From: Tychonema sp. LEGE 06208
Lineage (GTDB): Bacteria > Cyanobacteriota > Cyanobacteriia > Cyanobacteriales > Microcoleaceae
Assembly (NCBI RefSeq): GCF_015207505.1
Contig: NZ_JADEWT010000029.1
Coordinates: 1 to 58,881, forward strand
Reading direction: 5' to 3'
DNA: 58,881 nucleotides
Positions 33,500 through 42,694 of this stretch are shown here, one piece after another. The stretch's first letter is position 1; every line of letters starts with the position of its first letter. The notes beneath the pieces are model-generated. The model did no database searches, had not been told where the DNA came from, and saw only the letters and a program-made list of their open reading frames with translations. The translations under genes were made by a program, and so were the position numbers.

Positions 33500-33842
33500 T
33501 TTGTGAGGTCGTTGGCAGTTAGTAGTTCGCGGTTAGTTTATAAATAAAAATCCGGTTTGAGAACCCTTGGAAAAATGAATAAATTGGGAATCGAGAATCG
33601 GAAATCGGAAATCGGTAATTGGCTTTTTTGATGCCAAAACCTAATACCAAAACTAGATAAAGAGGGTAAAACAAACTGGGATTAGTCTTAAAAAGTTTGA
33701 CCGCCTAGAATTAGGAATTAAACCAATTACAATTCCCAATTACCAATTCCTAATTCCCCGCGCGGGCATCGGCCCGATGACCAATCCCTCCGCTTCGCTA
33801 GAGCCCGATGACCAATTCCCTAAGACCAATGAGCAAACCACA
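33500..33842. other. Intergenic region between rbcR and kinase gene
   Basis: This region has heptamer-type sequences (GAATCGGAAATCGGAAATCG; CAATTACCAATTCC) and no gene. Near the kinase start lies CAATCCCTCCGCTTCGCTAG, a short repeat also seen at 28149 and, inverted, at 58722. Confidence 0.5.
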
Positions 33843-35303
33843 ATGGAAGTTTACTGCACCCGCCCGGCCTGCCCGCGCCCTCAAAACAATTTTGCAGACC
33901 TCGATGATAGTTCCCTGCTGAAAACTGTGCAGCAAAAGTTTTGCACGACTTGCGGGATGCCCCTAATTTTGAGCGGCCGCTATTTGCCCGCGAGGTTGTT
34001 GGGTCAAGGCGGTTTTGGGGCGGCATTTTTGGCTAGAGACCGCTACACTCCGGCGATGCGGCAGTGCGTGGCTAAACTTTTGCAGCCGTCGGCAAATATG
34101 ACTCCGGCACAGCTAAGAATCGCTCATACTCTGTTTGAACGGGAAGCGGCGGTGCTGGAAGAACTGGGAAACGAACATTCGCAAATTCCGAGTTTGCTGG
34201 CGTTTTTTGAGCTGACTGTTCCGAGTTTGCAAGGGGGGAACAACGATCAGTTTTTCTATTTGGTTCAAGAATTTATTGACGGTGAAAATTTGGAGGAAGA
34301 ACTTGCTGCTAAGGGTAAGTTTTCGGAGGCCCAAACGCTGGAGGTGCTGGGAGAAATTTTGAAGGTTCTCGATTTTGTGCATTCTCGCGGTTCGATTCAC
34401 CGAGATATTAAACCTGCTAATATTATGCGGGCTAAAAATGGTCGGCTTTATTTATTAGATTTTGGGGCTGTCAAACAGGTGACGCAAACTGCGGGCAGTT
34501 CTAAGGCTTCTACTGGTATTTATTCTTTGGGTTACGCTCCGCCAGAACAGATGAGCGGGCAAGAAGTTTATCCGGCAACGGATTTTTATGCTTTGGCTGT
34601 GACTTGCATTACTTTGTTGACCGATTTGCAGCCGACGGAGTTGTTTGATAGTTATCAAAATCAGTGGAATTGGCGTTCTAGGGTGCAGGTAAGCCCGCGT
34701 TTGGCTGAAGTTCTCGATCGAATGTTGTTGCCGGCTCCGAGTCAGCGCTATCAATCTGCTGCGGAGGTGCAAGCGGCTCTGAAATACAATTCTCAACAGC
34801 CTACGGTGGTCGTGCAGCCGCCTGCTGTGCAGACTCCGCCCCCCCTACCTCCTGTGCAGCTACCACCTCCTCTGCCGCCTCCTCTGCCTGTTGCTGTGAC
34901 TCCTCCGGGAAGTCTGCAACCTCGGCCGAGAGGGGCTTTTTCGATTTGGGAGGTTTTGCGTGGGGCTGCGTTTACGGGTTTTGAGGGGGCGTTGCTGGCG
35001 ATCGCCCTGACGAGTTGGCTGCCATCTCCGGGCTTGAGTATCGGGTTGCTGGGTGCGATCGTGGGGGGGCTGATTTACGCTCAGTACCGCAGGGCGATCG
35101 AACAAACTGAGATGCTGATTATTGGTGCTGGTACTCTGGCTGTGCTGTGGTTTTTCCCGGCTTGGCAGAAGGCCGCAACTATGATTTATCCCGGTTCTCC
35201 GATGGTTGGCGTGTTGTTTGTGGGATGTTTGGGGGCTTTGGGGGCGATCGCGGCAACAGCCGTATTTCGCTTGATTTATAAGTTGCTTTCTAATGTTTTT
35301 TAA
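33843..35303 (+). CDS. Membrane Ser/Thr kinase with N-terminal zinc ribbon
   Basis: I prefer ATG 33843 (MEVYCTRPACPRPQ) because the upstream alternative at 33777 would translate a dispersed repeat. The protein has the four-Cys ribbon (CTRPAC and CTTC), kinase motifs LLGQGGFGAAFLARD, catalytic HRDIKPANIMRAKNG and LLDFGAVKQ, and the activation region STGIYSLGYAPPEQ. A proline-rich linker (PPLPPVQLPPPLPPPLPVAV) is followed by four hydrophobic helices to the C-terminus. It should sit in the membrane with the kinase in the cytoplasm. It has no extracytoplasmic sensor domain. Confidence 0.92.
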   Translation: MEVYCTRPACPRPQNNFADLDDSSLLKTVQQKFCTTCGMPLILSGRYLPARLLGQGGFGAAFLARDRYTPAMRQCVAKLLQPSANMTPAQLRIAHTLFEREAAVLEELGNEHSQIPSLLAFFELTVPSLQGGNNDQFFYLVQEFIDGENLEEELAAKGKFSEAQTLEVLGEILKVLDFVHSRGSIHRDIKPANIMRAKNGRLYLLDFGAVKQVTQTAGSSKASTGIYSLGYAPPEQMSGQEVYPATDFYALAVTCITLLTDLQPTELFDSYQNQWNWRSRVQVSPRLAEVLDRMLLPAPSQRYQSAAEVQAALKYNSQQPTVVVQPPAVQTPPPLPPVQLPPPLPPPLPVAVTPPGSLQPRPRGAFSIWEVLRGAAFTGFEGALLAIALTSWLPSPGLSIGLLGAIVGGLIYAQYRRAIEQTEMLIIGAGTLAVLWFFPAWQKAATMIYPGSPMVGVLFVGCLGALGAIAATAVFRLIYKLLSNVF

Positions 35304-35484: not shown

Positions 35485-37158
35485 ATGGAAAATCAGAAGT
35501 CGATTAACCCGAATTGGGCGATCGCTTGGGGGACTGCCACCCGATCGCACCCTGCAACTTGGGAAACCGCCGGTTTTGCCATAATTGGAGCTGAACCCAC
35601 CTTCAGCCCCAATCAGCGATTTGTGCTGGTGGGTGACTGCTGCTTCGATCGCACTTTGCTGCTCAAAAAACAGATTGATACCGATGGATTGAGCGATTTG
35701 GCGATCGTCGGGCAGTTATGGGAAACATCCGGCCCTCAAACTCTTAGCTTGCTAGAAGGACAGTTTGCGCTGGCTGTATGGGATAGAGAAGAGCAAACGC
35801 TTTGTATCGGGCGCGATCGCGTCGGAGCCAAAACGCTGTATTACACCCGTGCGGGAAATACTCGCTGGATTGCGCCTCGACTGCGATCGCTCAATTCGTA
35901 TCACGATCGCACACTCGATTTAGTTGCTTTGCGCGACTATTTGTGCTGTGCCTTTGTACCCGGAGCGCAAACGCTGTGGGAAGGAGTGCGAGAGTTGCGC
36001 CCTGGTAGCTACTTGTATTTACCGGATGTTAAAGCGCAGAGATATTGGGAACCGCAGGAGCAAATTACTAACGCCGATCGCCCTTTGGAATGGCACAGTC
36101 AACAAGTGCGATCGCTCTTGGAACAACTGGTGCAAGAAGGGCTACCAGCCGGGGAACCTGTCGCAGCATACCTTTCGGGTGGCATTGATTCAAGTTGCGT
36201 GACTGCGATCGCAGCCCGGTTGCACGATCGGCCAGTGCACACTTTTTCGATGCACTTTGGCGCCGAATATCCCAGCGAGATTGAATTTGCCAACATCGTC
36301 GCAGCACATTGCGGCACCGAGCACCATATTTTAGAAGTTTCGCCCAAGCAAATTTGGGAGTTGCTACCGGAAACGCTGGCTGCTATGGACGATCCGGTGG
36401 GGGAAGGCTTGACGGTGCCCAATTTGCTGCTGGGGCGATCGGCAAAACAATTCGCAGATGTGGTACTGAATGGGGAAGGTGGCGATCCGTGTTTTGGCGG
36501 GCCCAAAAATAAGCCGATGTTGCTGAATAGTTTGTATGGTTCGATTCAGGGTAAACCCGATCCGATCGCAGCTTACTTGACTTCGTTTCAAAAATGCTAT
36601 GTGGATTTACCGCGCTTGCTGAAACCGGAGGTTTGGAATCAGGTAAAAGATGCGCCTTCGGTGTTTGCACAGGAATTGCAACAGACAGAAACGACTTTTT
36701 TGAATCGGTTGATGCGGCTGAATATTGAGTACAAAGGGGCCGATTACATTTTAACTAAGGTAAACAATCTGACGGCTGCTGCGGGGCTAAAAGCTCGATC
36801 GCCCCTATTCGATCGGCGGATGGTGGCGCTGAGTTTGCAAATTCCGCCAGAGTACAAGCTTTCGGGCGCGCAGGAAAAGGCCGTGCTCAAGGCTGCTGTG
36901 GCCGATTTGCTGCCCGATGTTATTGTGAATCGTCCGAAAAGTGGGATGGTGATGTCGATGCAGCAGTGGTTTTTGAGGGATTGGCAGCGGCAAGCGCGAT
37001 CGTTGCTGTTGAATCGTCGTGCGGCGATCGCACCTTACCTCGATCGGGCATTGATTGAGGAATGGCTAAACTATCGAGGCGAAGTTTTTCCCCGCTACGG
37101 GCTGAAGCTGTGGCTGTTGGTAACACTGGAAATTTGGTTACAGGTGAATCGCCGTTAG
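35485..37158 (+). CDS. Asparagine synthetase-like ligase without glutaminase cysteine
   Basis: The 557-residue protein has the AsnB two-domain layout. The N-terminal Ntn-like domain (1-200) keeps FALAVWDREEQTLCIGRDR but begins MENQKSINPN, so the Cys nucleophile needed for glutamine hydrolysis is missing. The C-terminal ATP pyrophosphatase domain has the PP-loop YLSGGIDSSCVTA (S231 to S237), VLNGEGGDPCFGG and NRPKSGMVMSMQQW. It should adenylate a carboxylate and use ammonia or an amine; beta-lactam synthetase and lasso-peptide cyclases are built this way. It is convergent with a second such gene and a decarboxylase-like gene, which suggests one pathway. Confidence 0.85.
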   Translation: MENQKSINPNWAIAWGTATRSHPATWETAGFAIIGAEPTFSPNQRFVLVGDCCFDRTLLLKKQIDTDGLSDLAIVGQLWETSGPQTLSLLEGQFALAVWDREEQTLCIGRDRVGAKTLYYTRAGNTRWIAPRLRSLNSYHDRTLDLVALRDYLCCAFVPGAQTLWEGVRELRPGSYLYLPDVKAQRYWEPQEQITNADRPLEWHSQQVRSLLEQLVQEGLPAGEPVAAYLSGGIDSSCVTAIAARLHDRPVHTFSMHFGAEYPSEIEFANIVAAHCGTEHHILEVSPKQIWELLPETLAAMDDPVGEGLTVPNLLLGRSAKQFADVVLNGEGGDPCFGGPKNKPMLLNSLYGSIQGKPDPIAAYLTSFQKCYVDLPRLLKPEVWNQVKDAPSVFAQELQQTETTFLNRLMRLNIEYKGADYILTKVNNLTAAAGLKARSPLFDRRMVALSLQIPPEYKLSGAQEKAVLKAAVADLLPDVIVNRPKSGMVMSMQQWFLRDWQRQARSLLLNRRAAIAPYLDRALIEEWLNYRGEVFPRYGLKLWLLVTLEIWLQVNRR

Positions 37159-37191
37159 GGAGTGTTTTTAAATGACGGGCAAGTTACCCGA

Positions 37192-37468
37192 AATCAGGAC
37201 ACGGCAGTGCCGTTTCCCTACCATTAATCGGGCGATGGTTGCATTAAATAAATCAGGACACGGCAGTGCCGTTTCCCTACCATTAATCGGGCGATGGTTG
37301 CATTAAATCCCGGGCAATCAGATTATTTTGAGGTAGGGAAACGGCATTGCCGTCTCCTCTGTTGCTACGATTATTTTGGGGTAGGGAAACGGCATTGCCG
37401 TCTCCTCTGTTGTTTGGCGATCGGATTATTTTGGGGTAGGGAAACGGCATTGCCGTCTCCTCTGTTCC
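37192..37468. repeat. Tandem repeats with palindrome family E
   Basis: Two 59-bp direct repeats (from 37192 and 37251) each contain ACGGCAGTGCCGTTTCCCTA. They are followed by three copies of GATTATTTTG(A/G)GGTAGGGAAACGGCATTGCCGTCTCCT starting near 37321, 37369 and 37424. All cores are imperfect palindromes. The array fills the whole gap between two convergent genes. Confidence 0.85.
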
Positions 37469-38794
37469 TCAACCGAAACTATCAGAAACAAACACATAGC
37501 CGCCGCCATATCCCACAGAATTATCCGCTAATATTAAGCCGTCGTTGCCCTGCGGATCGCCACTCTGAGCAAGTCCATAATTCACCACCCGCAACAACCG
37601 CTGCGGCGTAAAAGATTCTAATTCCACGAAATTACCGGCATCTAACCATGCGAGTTCTTCTGCTGTTAAACCTTGCCTCACAGCATCGGGTAATTGACGA
37701 GCGCTTTGTGCCATTGTTTGAGATTGCTGTACAAACATATCGCGAGTTTCCAAGATTTGACGGGGAGAAATGCCTAAATCAAAAATTGTGACGGCTTGAT
37801 TTGCAAACCAGTTTGGACTGGTTCGTAATTGATGGACTAAACTAACTCCAGCAGGATTCGCATCGTGCAGCGCATACACTTTTAAATCGGCATTGCGTCG
37901 CAGCATTTCGATTACTGTGTCGAAGATGCTTTGGGGATAGCCGCTGATGCTGAGAATGGCGCAGTTGTTTTCAAAATGGACGTTGTTGGCAATCAGGAAT
38001 TGGGCGGTTTCGTCACTGTCACAGATGATTGCGCGATCGAAACTGTAGGCGCTAATTTCTGGATCGATGCTGGCGGATAAAGCTTCTTGGCGAGGTGCTG
38101 GGAGGAGTTTTTCTAGTGTACCGTTTACTCTTTGCCAGTCTAGCAGCCACTCATTACTCTGGGCTTGATTGACTAGAAATATTTCACCAGTTATCTGTGG
38201 ACGATTTTTTTGTGAAATGCCCAGCCAGTAGGAAAATAGTCCTAGGGCGATCGCTGCAATGTATCCTGGGACATAGTTCAGTATCAAGCTTCCTGAAATC
38301 CCTGTTACTAAAATTATTATTCCTAAAGTTTGTAAATTTGTGGCATTAATTCTTCTGTTGCGAGCACTTTGCTCGGTAGATTTGCTTTTGGCAAAAAAGC
38401 CCCCAATCCAAATAATATTTAAAACTGTCCACACTATCAAAAATCCCAGAGTGTCAGAAAAAATAGAGCTCATGAATAAACCGCCAACGATTATAATTAT
38501 CAAGCTCTGGATCAAATATTCTAAAGTCCACTTCCAAAGGTTAGATGACGTGCGATTTTTTAGCCGTTTATCCATCAAATACAAAAACTGTTTGGGCGTA
38601 AAAAATAACATATTTTGGCTGGAGATATCTGCGATCGCATTCTTGAAAAATGGATCGGTGAAGGCGATTTTTTGATCGGTGATAGTAGTGGGATCAAATA
38701 CAAAGGGATGGTTGCAATTCTTACAGTGACCTGAGTGGGTGGTACGATCGCGCAAATTGTTGTCGGTGTTACACTGGACGCATTTCATTCCCAT
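37469..38794 (-). CDS. Zinc-ribbon membrane protein with a Toprim-like C-terminal domain
   Basis: The 441 residues start with a four-Cys ribbon (MKCVQCNTDN and CKNCNHPF), followed by four hydrophobic helices between about 90 and 200. The soluble remainder includes DRAIICDSDETAQFLI and, further on, KVYALHDANPAGVSLVHQLR. The acidic HD-x-x-P-x-G pattern recalls the Toprim fold of topoisomerases and primases. That relation is weak and would not by itself imply DNA cleavage. It is followed by a Leu-rich helix pair and GYGGGYVFV. Function unknown. It sits in the ligase/decarboxylase-like cluster. Confidence 0.6.
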   Translation of the reverse strand: MGMKCVQCNTDNNLRDRTTHSGHCKNCNHPFVFDPTTITDQKIAFTDPFFKNAIADISSQNMLFFTPKQFLYLMDKRLKNRTSSNLWKWTLEYLIQSLIIIIVGGLFMSSIFSDTLGFLIVWTVLNIIWIGGFFAKSKSTEQSARNRRINATNLQTLGIIILVTGISGSLILNYVPGYIAAIALGLFSYWLGISQKNRPQITGEIFLVNQAQSNEWLLDWQRVNGTLEKLLPAPRQEALSASIDPEISAYSFDRAIICDSDETAQFLIANNVHFENNCAILSISGYPQSIFDTVIEMLRRNADLKVYALHDANPAGVSLVHQLRTSPNWFANQAVTIFDLGISPRQILETRDMFVQQSQTMAQSARQLPDAVRQGLTAEELAWLDAGNFVELESFTPQRLLRVVNYGLAQSGDPQGNDGLILADNSVGYGGGYVFVSDSFG

Positions 38795-38912
38795 TTCGGT
38801 TACTCCTGATTGATTTAATGGATTTATATCGTTGGCGGTTGTTTCGGAATGATTTAACCGCAGAGGGCGCAGAGGGCGCAGAGGAAGAGAAGAGAGAGAT
38901 GAATAATTCGGT

Positions 38913-40133
38913 TTAAAAGATTTGCCCGTTTAACAGAATGGAATAGTCTTCTCGCTGTCGAATTAGTCGATCGCCCTTAGCCTCAATCAACACCTCCGCA
39001 GGGCGGGGGCGGTGCAGAAAATGTGACGACATCGCATAACCGTAAGCCCCACTATCCAAAATGGCGAGATTATCTCCAATTTGCAGTTTCGGTAGCCAAC
39101 AGTTGCGCCCTAAATAATCCCGCGAATAAGTTGTGTTGCCACAAATATCGGTTTCGTATCGCGATACATCGCCGGTTTCCCAAGTTGCGATCGCCCGATA
39201 GCCTCCGTGTACCGCAGGCACTGATAGATTTGATACAGTGGTATCGACTCCGACTATTTGCCGCTCGCCCAACCACTTCACAGACACAACTTTTGCTAGC
39301 AAAATACCGCAACCTGCGATCGCGGATCGTCCCGGTTCAATTACTAACTCGATCGGGCGAGATAGGGCACTCAATCGTTCAGTAATCGCTGCCCCAAACT
39401 CCCCCCAGTCAAACACCGCACCGCCTCGATAGGGATAGCCAAAACCACCCCCAAAGTCGAGAATTCGCCAATCGGGTAACTGTTGGGCGATCGCAATTAG
39501 GCGATCGATTACTTGCGTAAAAGCACCAGTGGCATTAGTTCCAGTCCCCCGATAAAAATGCAGTCCAGTGATGCTAAAACTGTGCTGCTGCGCGATTTCG
39601 TTGGCTTTTTCAAATTCAGCGGGATTGAGTCCGATACGGCTGTCTCCCGTCAATTCGGGTAAGTTGAGCCGCAGTCCAATTTCGGGATCGATTAATCGCG
39701 GTTGACTGCGCGAATATTCGCAAAAATCCTGGAGTTGCGACAGGCTATCGAAGTTGAATCGATCGATCTTCCATTCAATCAGTTGCTGAATATCCGCCCG
39801 GTTGAGGTTACTGCCAGTGTAGACAATGCGATCGCCCGTAAAACCCGCTTTCAGTCCTAAAAAAACATCACCGGGCGTATTCGCGTGCAGCCCCCAACCA
39901 GTTGGCTGAATCAGTTGCAACAAAGCAATATTGCCGTTGGTGACGGTGGCAAAATGAAACTGAACGTGCGGATAGTCGATCGATCGGGTAATGTGTTCTA
40001 GGGTTTGACGCAGGCGATCGGCTTGATACACATATAAGGGCGAACCATAGGTTGATAAAAGTCGCTGGGCCATTGCTTCGGAGAATGGTGGCGAATGTAT
40101 TTTCGTTTCATTATTTAGCAAAGATTTAATCAT
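38913..40133 (-). CDS. Type III PLP-decarboxylase-fold protein lacking the catalytic lysine
   Basis: Taken from ATG 40133, the 406 residues match the alanine-racemase-like decarboxylases (DAPDC/ornithine type). LDFGGGFGYPYRGG supplies the phosphate-binding Gly run, IEPGRSAIAGCGI the EPGR motif and AILDSGAYGYAMSSHF with RPRPAEVLI the usual end. The strand that should read YAVKAN is FHFATVTNGNIALLQ: Val stands where the Schiff-base Lys belongs. I checked the codons (GCC ACC GTC ACC AAC). A decarboxylase without it should not work normally. It may be a pseudo-enzyme, a binding protein or use another chemistry. It lies beside two Cys-less AsnB-like ligases. Confidence 0.8.
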   Translation of the reverse strand: MIKSLLNNETKIHSPPFSEAMAQRLLSTYGSPLYVYQADRLRQTLEHITRSIDYPHVQFHFATVTNGNIALLQLIQPTGWGLHANTPGDVFLGLKAGFTGDRIVYTGSNLNRADIQQLIEWKIDRFNFDSLSQLQDFCEYSRSQPRLIDPEIGLRLNLPELTGDSRIGLNPAEFEKANEIAQQHSFSITGLHFYRGTGTNATGAFTQVIDRLIAIAQQLPDWRILDFGGGFGYPYRGGAVFDWGEFGAAITERLSALSRPIELVIEPGRSAIAGCGILLAKVVSVKWLGERQIVGVDTTVSNLSVPAVHGGYRAIATWETGDVSRYETDICGNTTYSRDYLGRNCWLPKLQIGDNLAILDSGAYGYAMSSHFLHRPRPAEVLIEAKGDRLIRQREDYSILLNGQIF

Positions 40134-40234
40134 AAGGAAGAAGTTCGGCAACGGATTTTGTAGCGGATGTAACGGATGTAACGGAGGTTATATCAAGTCC
40201 GATGGATCTGTTCTGATATAATTCCATATCTTGT

Positions 40235-40337
40235 AGGGGCGGGTTCACCAGTATTCTCAAATTCAAAGCCAACAAATTTATAAACCCGCCCCGACCATAT
40301 CAACTGTCAACTGTCAACTGTCAACTGTTAACTGTCT
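40235..40337. repeat. Hairpin and heptamers at the 3' end of the ligase gene
   Basis: AGGGGCGGGTT (40235-40245) and AACCCGCCCC (40283-40292) form a stem, followed by AACTGTC heptamers (40302-40337). The heptamers run into the final codons of the gene at 40314. Confidence 0.75.
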
Positions 40338-42068
40338 TCGATATTTCCAAATGCGTTGTCCGATCGCCGGTGGCAACCAAAAAACATGATCCAGCGATCG
40401 CTTAACTGGAATTTCGCCTAAAACTTCGGTTCGCCATGCTTGCCACATCAGCAGCAACCACAGATTGTTGCCAATGTATCGATCGCGCATGGCAACTCCG
40501 AGTTTTCCCGATAACATCGAGTCGGCTAAATGCGGTTGCCAGGATTTTTGCGATCGCAGTACATTCGGATTCAGCCGAGATCCGATCGCACTCCAAAACT
40601 CCCGGTAATACCACACCTTCAACGGCACACCCATCCCGCGTTTTTCCCGCCAGACAATTTCCGGTGGCAGCCAACGTTCGGAGGCTTTTTTGAGGATGTA
40701 TTTTTCGCACGCACCTTGCAGCAGCAGCTCGCCAGGGAGTTGAAACGTCCACTCCGTGAGGTCGGGGTCGCAGAAGGGCGATCGCACCCACAAACCGCAA
40801 GCAAAGCCCAATGCGGTGGCCCTCGGCTGGATATTTTGGGCGCCTTTGAGCATCAGCGAAGCCCGCCGCAGTTTGGCTAGCAGGGAGGGACAGGTGTCGG
40901 TACCGATCGCATCTTGCAGGTAAATGCTTAAATCGTGGGATTGAGTGCGATCGAGCCTCTTTGATAAAAAACTGGGCGTAAAAATCTGTTTTTCATAACC
41001 ATAAAATCGCTGAAACGTCCGCAAATACTGCTGTTCAAAGGTTTCTTTGCCGGCTGGATGTTCTGCGCTGTAAACTCCGTTAGCAATCAAGGGTTTGTTT
41101 GTCCATCCGGCAAATAGCTGATCGCCGTTTTCGCCATTGAATACAACTCGCACCTCTTGCGCCGCCGCCTGTTTGAGCAAAAACAGCGGGGCTGTTGTGC
41201 CGTCTCCGTAGGGTGAATCTAGGGCTTTGGCGGTTGGCCCGATCGCGCCCAAGATTGTATCGCCCGTCGCCGCCACTCGGATTAGCGGAATCCCGAAAAA
41301 GTCGGCAACCTGTTGCGCGTAGGGCAATTCGGAATAGGCTTCGACACCAAAATCGAGGGCATAGGCGCGGACTTTCAAGCCTGCTTTGACTAGCAGCGCT
41401 GTCACTAGGGAAGAATCAATCCCGCCTGATAGCAAAACGCCGACTGGTTCGTCGATCGGCAAATCAGCCACCTGTCGATCGATCGCCTGTTGTAACAGCG
41501 TTTGCAATTGTGCGATCGCCTCATCTTCACTCCGCAGTAATTGCGGCGCTTCTTGCCAAGCTGATTTGAGCGATCTCACTTTCGGCTGAGACTGAACATC
41601 GGCGATTTCCCAAAGGATTTCGGTTCCGGCTGCTACAGATGCAATTTGCTCGATCGCAGTTAACGGCGTTGGTACATAGGAAAAACAAGCATAACTGTGT
41701 AGGGCGATCGGACTCACTTCAGGAGAATCAATCAGCGGTAGCAGCAATTGCATTTGAGTCGAAAACCAAATCGTTTTTGCCAACTGAATCCAGTAAAGCG
41801 GCACGCGCCCAAACGGATCGCGCCCCAGCCGTAGCTGTCCCGTTTCCACTCCAGCCCAAACATCTCCCGGAAAATCCGTCGGTTGAAATCGCCCGCAAGC
41901 ATTCAGCGTCACTGTGTCAGCCGCGAGGATTGATGCAGAGGCGATCGCCCACTCGGATAATTTGCCCGATCGGATAAAGTAATTAGGCACTAAACGGCTA
42001 AGGGTTTTTGTGAGATCAGTTTGTCCCCAGTAGCCGATGAAATGTGCAGGTTTGCCGATCGCACCCAT
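40314..42068 (-). CDS. Second asparagine synthetase-like ligase without glutaminase cysteine
   Basis: The 584-residue protein starts MGAIGKPAHFIGYWGQ, again with no Cys at position 2. The PP-loop VGVLLSGGIDSSLVTALL and the end motif WREKRGMGVPLKVWYY are present, and the acidic region reads VFNGENGDQLFAGW. It is clearly related to, but diverged from, the ligase at 35485. It should form an amide bond from an adenylated acid. The last residues (QLTVDS) are encoded by an STRR array. Only two bases separate it from the upstream membrane-anchored gene, so they are co-transcribed. Confidence 0.85.
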   Translation of the reverse strand: MGAIGKPAHFIGYWGQTDLTKTLSRLVPNYFIRSGKLSEWAIASASILAADTVTLNACGRFQPTDFPGDVWAGVETGQLRLGRDPFGRVPLYWIQLAKTIWFSTQMQLLLPLIDSPEVSPIALHSYACFSYVPTPLTAIEQIASVAAGTEILWEIADVQSQPKVRSLKSAWQEAPQLLRSEDEAIAQLQTLLQQAIDRQVADLPIDEPVGVLLSGGIDSSLVTALLVKAGLKVRAYALDFGVEAYSELPYAQQVADFFGIPLIRVAATGDTILGAIGPTAKALDSPYGDGTTAPLFLLKQAAAQEVRVVFNGENGDQLFAGWTNKPLIANGVYSAEHPAGKETFEQQYLRTFQRFYGYEKQIFTPSFLSKRLDRTQSHDLSIYLQDAIGTDTCPSLLAKLRRASLMLKGAQNIQPRATALGFACGLWVRSPFCDPDLTEWTFQLPGELLLQGACEKYILKKASERWLPPEIVWREKRGMGVPLKVWYYREFWSAIGSRLNPNVLRSQKSWQPHLADSMLSGKLGVAMRDRYIGNNLWLLLMWQAWRTEVLGEIPVKRSLDHVFWLPPAIGQRIWKYRRQLTVDS

Positions 42069-42070
42069 AT

Positions 42071-42694
42071 CTATTTCACCACGAAAGGTTCACTGCCGAT
42101 CGCGCGCCCATCCAGAGACATCCGAACCTCCCAGTTTCCCTGCAAGGAAGCAGATCCGAGGTCATAAAAACAGTAAGTATTCCAAACTGATGTATCGATC
42201 GTGCGAGTCTGATACTTGTTCTGATGAACAATTTGACCACTCGGATTAGTCCAGTCGCATTGCAGAGACAACCGATTGCCGATCGGAGCATTTTTCAACG
42301 TCACCTGGTAGTAGATGCGGGGATTGATTTGACGATTGACTTGACTGAGGCTATCACCACCCTTTTTCGATAGCGAAATCCTGTCTTCTGTTGACGCAAC
42401 TCCAGCATTTTGCTGCTGTCGATTTTGCCCGAATAGAATGCCGATCGCGATCGCCGAAATCACAACCGCAGTCGAGGCGATCGCAATCCAACGATTCCGT
42501 CGCTGCTGTTTTTCCAAGGCCTCGCGGCGGTGCATTTGGGCGATCGCATCTTCCAGAAGTTCATCAGGCAAATTCAACTCCCGTAAAATTTCTCTTACGC
42601 GATCCGTTCCCAATTCTAACTCACGCTGGTTTGATAACCTATCGATTTCAGCGACAACCTGTGCTAACTGATCTTGAGTAAGTCGAGTTTCCAT
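42071..42694 (-). CDS. Membrane-anchored protein, DUF3859-like C-terminus
   Basis: The 207-residue protein has a helical cytoplasmic part (METRLTQDQLAQVVAEIDRL; REILRELNLPDELLEDAIAQ), one membrane helix near 68-88 (WIAIASTAVVISAIAIGILF) and a beta-rich outer domain with RLSQCDW-like and EVRMSLDGRAIGSEPFVV features. The C-terminal strands resemble what I recall of DUF3859 proteins; not certain. It directly precedes the second AsnB-like gene and probably starts the operon. A cargo-binding or assembly role is possible but unsupported. Confidence 0.65.
   Translation of the reverse strand: METRLTQDQLAQVVAEIDRLSNQRELELGTDRVREILRELNLPDELLEDAIAQMHRREALEKQQRRNRWIAIASTAVVISAIAIGILFGQNRQQQNAGVASTEDRISLSKKGGDSLSQVNRQINPRIYYQVTLKNAPIGNRLSLQCDWTNPSGQIVHQNKYQTRTIDTSVWNTYCFYDLGSASLQGNWEVRMSLDGRAIGSEPFVVK

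Follow-up and report, generated by a model that had tools for sequence, protein, structure and literature searches.

Lasso cyclases and beta-lactam synthetases are AsnB-fold enzymes in which the glutaminase function has been lost, and to our knowledge AsnB-type chemistry has so far been described on metabolites and small peptides. The amino-group carrier LysW, a small soluble zinc-ribbon protein with a conserved C terminus, is charged by an ATP-grasp ligase, and pairings of a PP-loop enzyme with a dedicated protein include QatB-QatC and, reportedly, Cap9 of type IV CBASS. TsrC, ScdTA, and PesC are described as AsnB-like enzymes acting on peptide C-terminal carboxylates, and a Glu-Tyr pair near ATP is credited with binding the carboxylate in these three enzymes as well as in E. 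coli asparagine synthetase (AS) and AsnO (PMC13060819). QatC, a PP-loop protein of the QueC family, pairs with QatB, whose unstructured N terminus and Gly motif are essential (PMC13279940). Here we compare these systems with a cyanobacterial gene cassette that is apparently undescribed; no model in the libraries searched names the combination, and we did not find a description of it in open PMC text.

The cassette lies in Tychonema sp. LEGE 06208, within the 58,881-nt stretch of DNA that was analyzed (the window; Table 1). All of the genes reported by the first-pass annotation were confirmed in place, and we refer to them by working names coined in this analysis: LIG1, LIG2, PLP-like, TOPRIM, and DUF207. 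DUF207, LIG2, PLP-like, and TOPRIM are transcribed in that order from the minus strand, with 2 bases between the end of DUF207 and LIG2, and LIG1 faces them from the plus strand; the two ligases do flank the decarboxylase-fold gene as had been described, with LIG1 on the opposite strand. That gene was correctly recognized together with its fold, but its start was misplaced, as it begins with a TTG codon at 40151 and position 40133 is only its first ATG. The 207-aa protein had been called DUF3859-like, a designation that we withdraw because it does not match Pfam DUF3859, nor does any other Pfam family match it above cut-off; its C-terminal half is modeled as a beta-sandwich resembling Ig-type domains. 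Where LIG1 and TOPRIM converge, the intergenic region contains tandem repeats of 59 and ∼55 bases (window positions 37191 to 37466). A 4-Cys-prefix Ser/Thr kinase gene (33777 to 35303) adjoins LIG1, and still does so in genomes G011 and G018, where LIG1 sits apart from the rest of the cassette.

Table 1. Features of the Tychonema cassette, in window coordinates
Feature	Position	Strand	Remark
LIG1, 557-aa AsnB-like ligase lacking the glutaminase Cys, apparent core partner of TOPRIM	35485..37158	+	
LIG1 PP-loop SGGIDSS, residues 231-237	36175..36195	+	S and D kept in 50/50
TOPRIM, probable membrane protein, 441 aa: zinc ribbon, helices, topoisomerase-VI-A-like Toprim domain, disordered tail	37469..38794	-	
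TOPRIM disordered tail, residues 414-441	37472..37555	-	pLDDT < 50
TOPRIM C-terminal Ser-Phe-Gly	37472..37480	-	F440 and G441 invariant in 40-row alignment
TOPRIM Toprim domain, residues 232-411	37562..38101	-	
TOPRIM long helices 86-196, probably membrane-spanning	38207..38539	-	placement inferred from composition
TOPRIM zinc ribbon CxxC...CxxC (C5, C8, C24, C27)	38714..38782	-	columns invariant; zinc binding inferred
PLP-like, Lys-less and Cys-less diaminopimelate decarboxylase relative, 412 aa	38913..40151	-	TTG start
PLP-like Val70 codon, PLP-lysine position	39942..39944	-	Val in 78/78
PLP-like Thr341 codon, catalytic Cys position	39129..39131	-	Thr in 78/78
LIG2, 584 aa, the other AsnB-like ligase, also lacking the glutaminase Cys	40314..42068	-	
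LIG2 PP-loop SGGIDSS, residues 214-220	41409..41429	-	S and D kept in 70/70
DUF207, 207 aa: N-terminal helices (one probable membrane helix), C-terminal beta-sandwich	42071..42694	-	

One scan of GTDB genomes yielded 162 relatives, and 80 loci, all with cyanobacterial titles, were kept for counts. TOPRIM is present in 78 of the 80 (absent with room in one, contig too short in one), LIG2 in 71 (four absent with room, five too short), DUF207 in 69 (five and six), and LIG1, within the fetched flank, in 53 (11 and 16). The genes that are present follow the order DUF207-LIG2-PLP-TOPRIM on one strand, with TOPRIM, LIG2, and DUF207 always on the PLP strand and LIG1 on the opposite strand in 45/53. 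Per-family alignments, each including the window sequence, were limited by length to 350 to 520 aa for TOPRIM (85 rows), 190 to 260 for DUF207 (67), 370 to 480 for PLP-like (78), 500 to 640 for LIG1 (50), and 500 to 660 for LIG2 (70). Of 39 relatives of the window genome (itself included), 21 encode both the Lys-less PLP-like protein and LIG2; LIG1 is found in all of these and also in G011, which has only a remnant of TOPRIM.

We then profiled 386 genomes across the phylum (E limits of 1e-45 for PLP-like, 1e-10 for TOPRIM, 1e-75 for LIG1, and 1e-65 for LIG2) and found TOPRIM in 38, LIG1 in 39, and LIG2 in 32; PLP-like has 35 matches, from which we subtract G070, a true LysA with its Lys and CESGD, leaving 34 genomes. 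Counting genomes and not independent events, TOPRIM accompanies PLP-like in 34/34, LIG1 in 33 (not G153), and LIG2 in 32 (not G382 or G046). The association extends to dispersed genes, with LIG1 remote in 6 of the 33: G018, G155, G255, and G202 carry it far away in the same contig, and G182 and G352 carry it on a different one, which may reflect an assembly gap. In G202, LIG2, LIG1, and a PLP-TOPRIM pair are all retained although megabases separate them on a single contig, where the parts map near 0.19, 3.49, and 4.44 Mb. TOPRIM occurs without PLP-like in G041, G053, and G073, each with LIG1, and as a fragment with none of the others in G151, and LIG1 lacks a TOPRIM match in 3 of the 386 genomes, being intact in G118 and G146 and split in G047. 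In G407 there are stops in PLP-like, LIG1, LIG2, and TOPRIM, indicating that the cassette decays as a whole. These distributions show, at the level of gene content, that LIG1, LIG2, PLP-like, and TOPRIM are co-inherited, and the earlier inference that the genes belong together is supported by conservation in other genomes beyond what chance would give; very probably the cassette is one functional module. Loci L275 and L279 cover G047 and G407, and the LIG1 of G047 is interrupted by apparent transposase ORFs. We also note a complete five-gene cassette on a plasmid of Gloeothece verrucosa PCC 7822 (L188, 9452 to 16270). The plasmid is linear, 474 kb long, and typed as conjugative, and a gene of the protelomerase family lies near the cassette.

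Both ligases belong to Pfam Asn_synthase (PF00733), scoring 249.8 (LIG1) and 179.5 bits (LIG2) against a cut-off of 21, and the PP-loop and the equivalents of Glu348 and Asp351 are present in 50/50 LIG1 and 70/70 LIG2 sequences, window included. An N-terminal Cys start, sought as (M/V/L)CG(I/V) within the first 120 residues of ORFs of at least 500 aa with the frame extended to the previous stop, was found in 0/49 LIG1 and 0/69 LIG2 ORFs of the 80 loci, so that no Cys is supplied from a missed upstream start. The Asn that we take to be the glutamine-binding residue is replaced in 50/50 LIG1 sequences, and at this position the LIG2 alignment is broken by gaps, so that at least 63/70 sequences show either a different letter or none. 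The description of two Cys-less ligases with intact PP-loops is thus borne out, and with no glutaminase Cys in any frame the residue patterns support the further claim that neither ligase would be able to depend on glutamine. A distant LIG2 (in G078) starts MSGICGWVG, which reads as a canonical MCGI start with Cys changed to Ser and points to an ordinary AsnB as the probable ancestor.

Neither ligase reaches the curated cut-off for glutamine-hydrolyzing asparagine synthetase (TIGR01536; 240.5 and 170.0 bits for LIG1 and LIG2, versus 267.1) or for the XrtA/PEP-CTERM amidotransferase (TIGR03108; 221.4 and 156.7, versus 816.9), and both fall far under that for lasso peptide cyclase (NF033535; 148.8 and 59.1, versus 525). 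Beta-lactam synthetase and CarA are detectable as homologues, the former as a distant match, and the ORFs of at least 70 aa in the 80 loci include no recurrent family of further lasso genes; the likeness to beta-lactam synthetase and lasso cyclases drawn in the first-pass annotation therefore holds in the generic sense of a common AsnB fold, but not more closely. Following the second ATP-site motif are Pro...Pro in 50/50 LIG1 and Gln...Trp in 70/70 LIG2 sequences, residues that differ from those of the three AsnB-type relatives used for comparison, and this family specificity points to a substrate other than that of AsnB. It also weighs against LIG1 and LIG2 being ammonia-dependent, asparagine-synthetase-like amide synthetases in an incidental neighborhood, as does the co-inheritance with TOPRIM and PLP-like, unlinked copies included. 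Even though free ammonia can substitute for glutamine in AsnB, and the PP-loop and the Glu348 and Asp351 equivalents are retained, we regard this explanation as very improbable.

The PLP-like protein falls in the Pfam Orn/DAP/Arg decarboxylase family and scores 237.5 bits with the diaminopimelate decarboxylase model (TIGR01048), under its cut-off of 297.9, with the PLP lysine and catalytic Cys missing. At the PLP-lysine position there is Val in 78/78 cassette proteins (window included) and Lys in 9/9 comparison proteins (seven LysA and two other paralogues), in agreement with the earlier description of a Lys-less PLP-fold protein. The other positions to which we assign roles from the decarboxylase family are also replaced in 78/78, the catalytic Cys by Thr, the stacking His by Tyr, and an Arg/Lys that may bind substrate by Val. 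PLP-like is nonetheless a LysA homologue that differs at the Lys, His, and Cys positions but shares the GGG, EPGR, and GAYG motifs; GGG, EPGR, and the Tyr of GAYG, presumably forming the phosphate-binding cup, are retained in 78/78. The replacements support the view that standard PLP binding would be impossible.

Relatives of PLP-like are encoded on rhizobial plasmids, with 33% identity in two Mesorhizobium records and 32% in Sinorhizobium. The two inspected (L189, 10028 to 11221; L190, 5980 to 7083) are Lys-less, with Met at the Lys position, and in an unrooted FastTree phylogeny the rhizobial relatives group with those of the cassette and separately from LysA and the two paralogues (split support, 0.974); the Lys-less family thus extends beyond the cassette. 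We considered them as members of the same system and rejected this, as neither of the two loci (21 and 13 kb) contains a ligase or a Toprim gene. One Lys-less relative lies in a Mesorhizobium cluster that looks biosynthetic, with radical SAM, aminotransferase, and P450 genes. In L189 the Lys-less gene is adjoined by radical SAM genes, a DUF3050 gene, and a TldD-related gene; one of these radical SAM genes is annotated as B12-binding in a sister M. loti record. The L190 record carries no annotation.

The smallest form of the cassette is seen in G041, G053, and G073, where TOPRIM and LIG1 are same-strand neighbors whose mechanically called ORFs overlap, and where PLP-like and LIG2 were not found in the 12 to 15 kb read or genome-wide above the E limits. 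Other arrangements are PLP-TOPRIM-LIG1 in G046 and PLP-LIG2-TOPRIM-LIG1, on a single strand, in G078. Because the smallest version consists of TOPRIM and LIG1, these two genes look like the core, and TOPRIM, as the most constant partner (34/34 PLP genomes; 78/80 loci), is the center of the cassette.

TOPRIM matches the TOP6A/Spo11 Toprim family at 25.8 bits against a cut-off of 24.1, and family score and fold agree in this assignment. With respect to the catalytic Glu and DxD of such domains, Asp311 is variable, and Cys258, judged by the motif, lies approximately where the Glu would be expected. The first pair of the long helices is absent from some relatives, and the tail is disordered in the predicted model. 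The protein ends in Phe-Gly in 91/105 TOPRIM ORFs (fragments included), usually as -(D/E/Q)-S-F-G, and in exactly SFG in 85 of the 103 ORFs not cut by a contig end. The tail statistics cover only the 91 FG-ending ORFs, so that Phe and Gly are fixed by row selection and the fair figure for the Phe-Gly end is 91/105; similarly, the 40-row TOPRIM alignment consists of hand-picked full-length copies. Within the 74 distinct FG-ending tails, Ser occupies position −3 in 92%, and from −4 to −20 only −7 (66%) and −5 and −20 (51% each) exceed 50%. Both Phe codons, all four Gly codons, and all three stops are used. The 14 ORFs without the FG end are mostly fragments, masked, or cut, with an 836-aa double copy (L086) lacking the tail and a fragment in L123 ending SLG as exceptions. 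The most distant copies keep the motif, as GGDSFG, DSDSDFG, and, in the three TOPRIM-LIG1-only genomes, DFG. This alignment-based evidence shows the TOPRIM Phe-Gly motif to be conserved. Loci L161, L164, L123, and L139 carry from two to several TOPRIM genes in tandem, and some of these copies are broken or masked; all three in L161 have the -SFG end.

We clustered neighboring ORFs of at least 70 aa in the 80 loci (LIG1 and LIG2 merging into one cluster) and found the commonest noncassette family in 18/80 and no recurrent tailoring, transport, or carrier gene. A small precursor peptide was sought among these ORFs, and one of at least 70 aa was discarded, there being no widely recurring small gene in that size range (an 84-aa family is in 14/80); a shorter peptide may still belong to the cassette. 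The low recurrence of kinase-containing (16/80), HAD (7/80), and NDH (6/80) families places them outside the unit. Nor does a known anti-phage system account for the cassette, for PADLOC gives only weak QueC matches (LIG1, 11.3 bits; LIG2, 26.3 bits) and nothing for TOPRIM, PLP-like, or DUF207 at E up to 0.1. These neighborhoods bear on the possibility of a small-molecule pathway, in which the ligases would couple an amine metabolite with a carboxylic acid, an intermediate would be bound by the PLP-fold protein, and TOPRIM and DUF207 would act as regulator, immunity protein, or sensor. The detection of beta-lactam synthetase and CarA as homologues and the Lys-less relative in the biosynthetic-looking Mesorhizobium cluster would fit such a pathway, but it lacks recurrent tailoring, transport, or carrier genes, leaves the conserved TOPRIM C terminus unexplained, and is at odds with a smallest form made of a ligase and a Toprim protein. 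We consider it unlikely, and a reading of the Toprim protein as a bystander to such a pathway gives way to TOPRIM as the partner that LIG1 retains when the others are missing.

An acid-activating ligase without its own nitrogen donor, co-inherited with a protein that has a conserved C-terminal Gly, points to the carboxylate of that end as the acid, and the conserved Phe-Gly end makes the protein tail a better candidate than a free metabolite. We tentatively propose that the TOPRIM C terminus is the chemical substrate of ligation. LIG1 would adenylate the carboxylate of -SFG and link it to an amine, so that TOPRIM would bear a tag or act as a carrier at the membrane; LIG2 would perform a second, related ligation or prepare the amine; PLP-like, through its phosphate-binding cup, could hold a phosphorylated or amine-bearing ligand without an internal aldimine and so supply or present the substrate or amine; and DUF207 may sense or anchor at the membrane. 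In its boldest form, which we think rather doubtful, this would be an unrecognized bacterial protein-conjugation system, in which an AsnB-type PP-loop ligase, acting like an E1, would adenylate the TOPRIM C-terminal glycine and link it to an amine, and a decarboxylase-fold protein devoid of PLP would present that amine.

Several observations argue against tail ligation. The Glu-Tyr pair appears to be replaced, by Pro-Pro in 50/50 LIG1 and Gln-Trp in 70/70 LIG2, so that the known C-terminal amidating geometry would not be conserved, the match to the PesC Glu-Tyr being our own reading of motif spacing from the text of the paper. LIG1 stands without an intact TOPRIM in G118, G146, G047, and G011, a TOPRIM fragment stands alone in G151, and some TOPRIM ORFs (the 14/105, mostly incomplete) have no FG end. 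A short linear motif at a disordered end often serves for recognition, and the Phe-Gly end might stay unmodified and be recognized, by LIG1 or by a different protein, as a signal for docking, targeting, or degradation, with the ligases acting elsewhere on TOPRIM or on another molecule. The replaced PesC-like carboxylate residues in both ligases would fit that case; however, a free carboxylate on a terminal Gly, next to an acid-activating ligase in a two-gene form, exceeds what docking needs, and we judge such a signal unlikely.

Tail ligation by LIG1 would have its nearest parallels in TsrC, ScdTA, and PesC, which are likewise PF00733 PP-loop ligases and activate the C-terminal carboxylate of a gene-encoded peptide. 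The PesC precursor, like TOPRIM, has a conserved end; in contrast, PesC takes nitrogen from glutamine and acts on a small precursor peptide, whereas the cassette ligases have neither the glutaminase Cys nor, as it appears, the Glu-Tyr pair, and their putative target, TOPRIM, is a probable membrane protein of 441 aa. QatB-QatC resembles the cassette in combining a PP-loop enzyme with a dedicated protein that has a disordered end with an essential Gly motif, and differs in the QueC family of its enzyme and in using the QatB N terminus rather than a C terminus as in TOPRIM. LysW and TOPRIM have in common a zinc ribbon, putative in TOPRIM, and a conserved C terminus, and LysW serves as a carrier.

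If tail ligation is correct, AsnB-type chemistry would also tag the C terminus of a membrane protein across cyanobacteria, and PLP-like would provide a defined pseudo-decarboxylase family for studying the function of a PLP fold that lacks its lysine. Whatever the chemistry, a cassette that occurs in 34/386 genomes sampled across the phylum (about 9%) and has no name in the libraries searched is a well-posed target.
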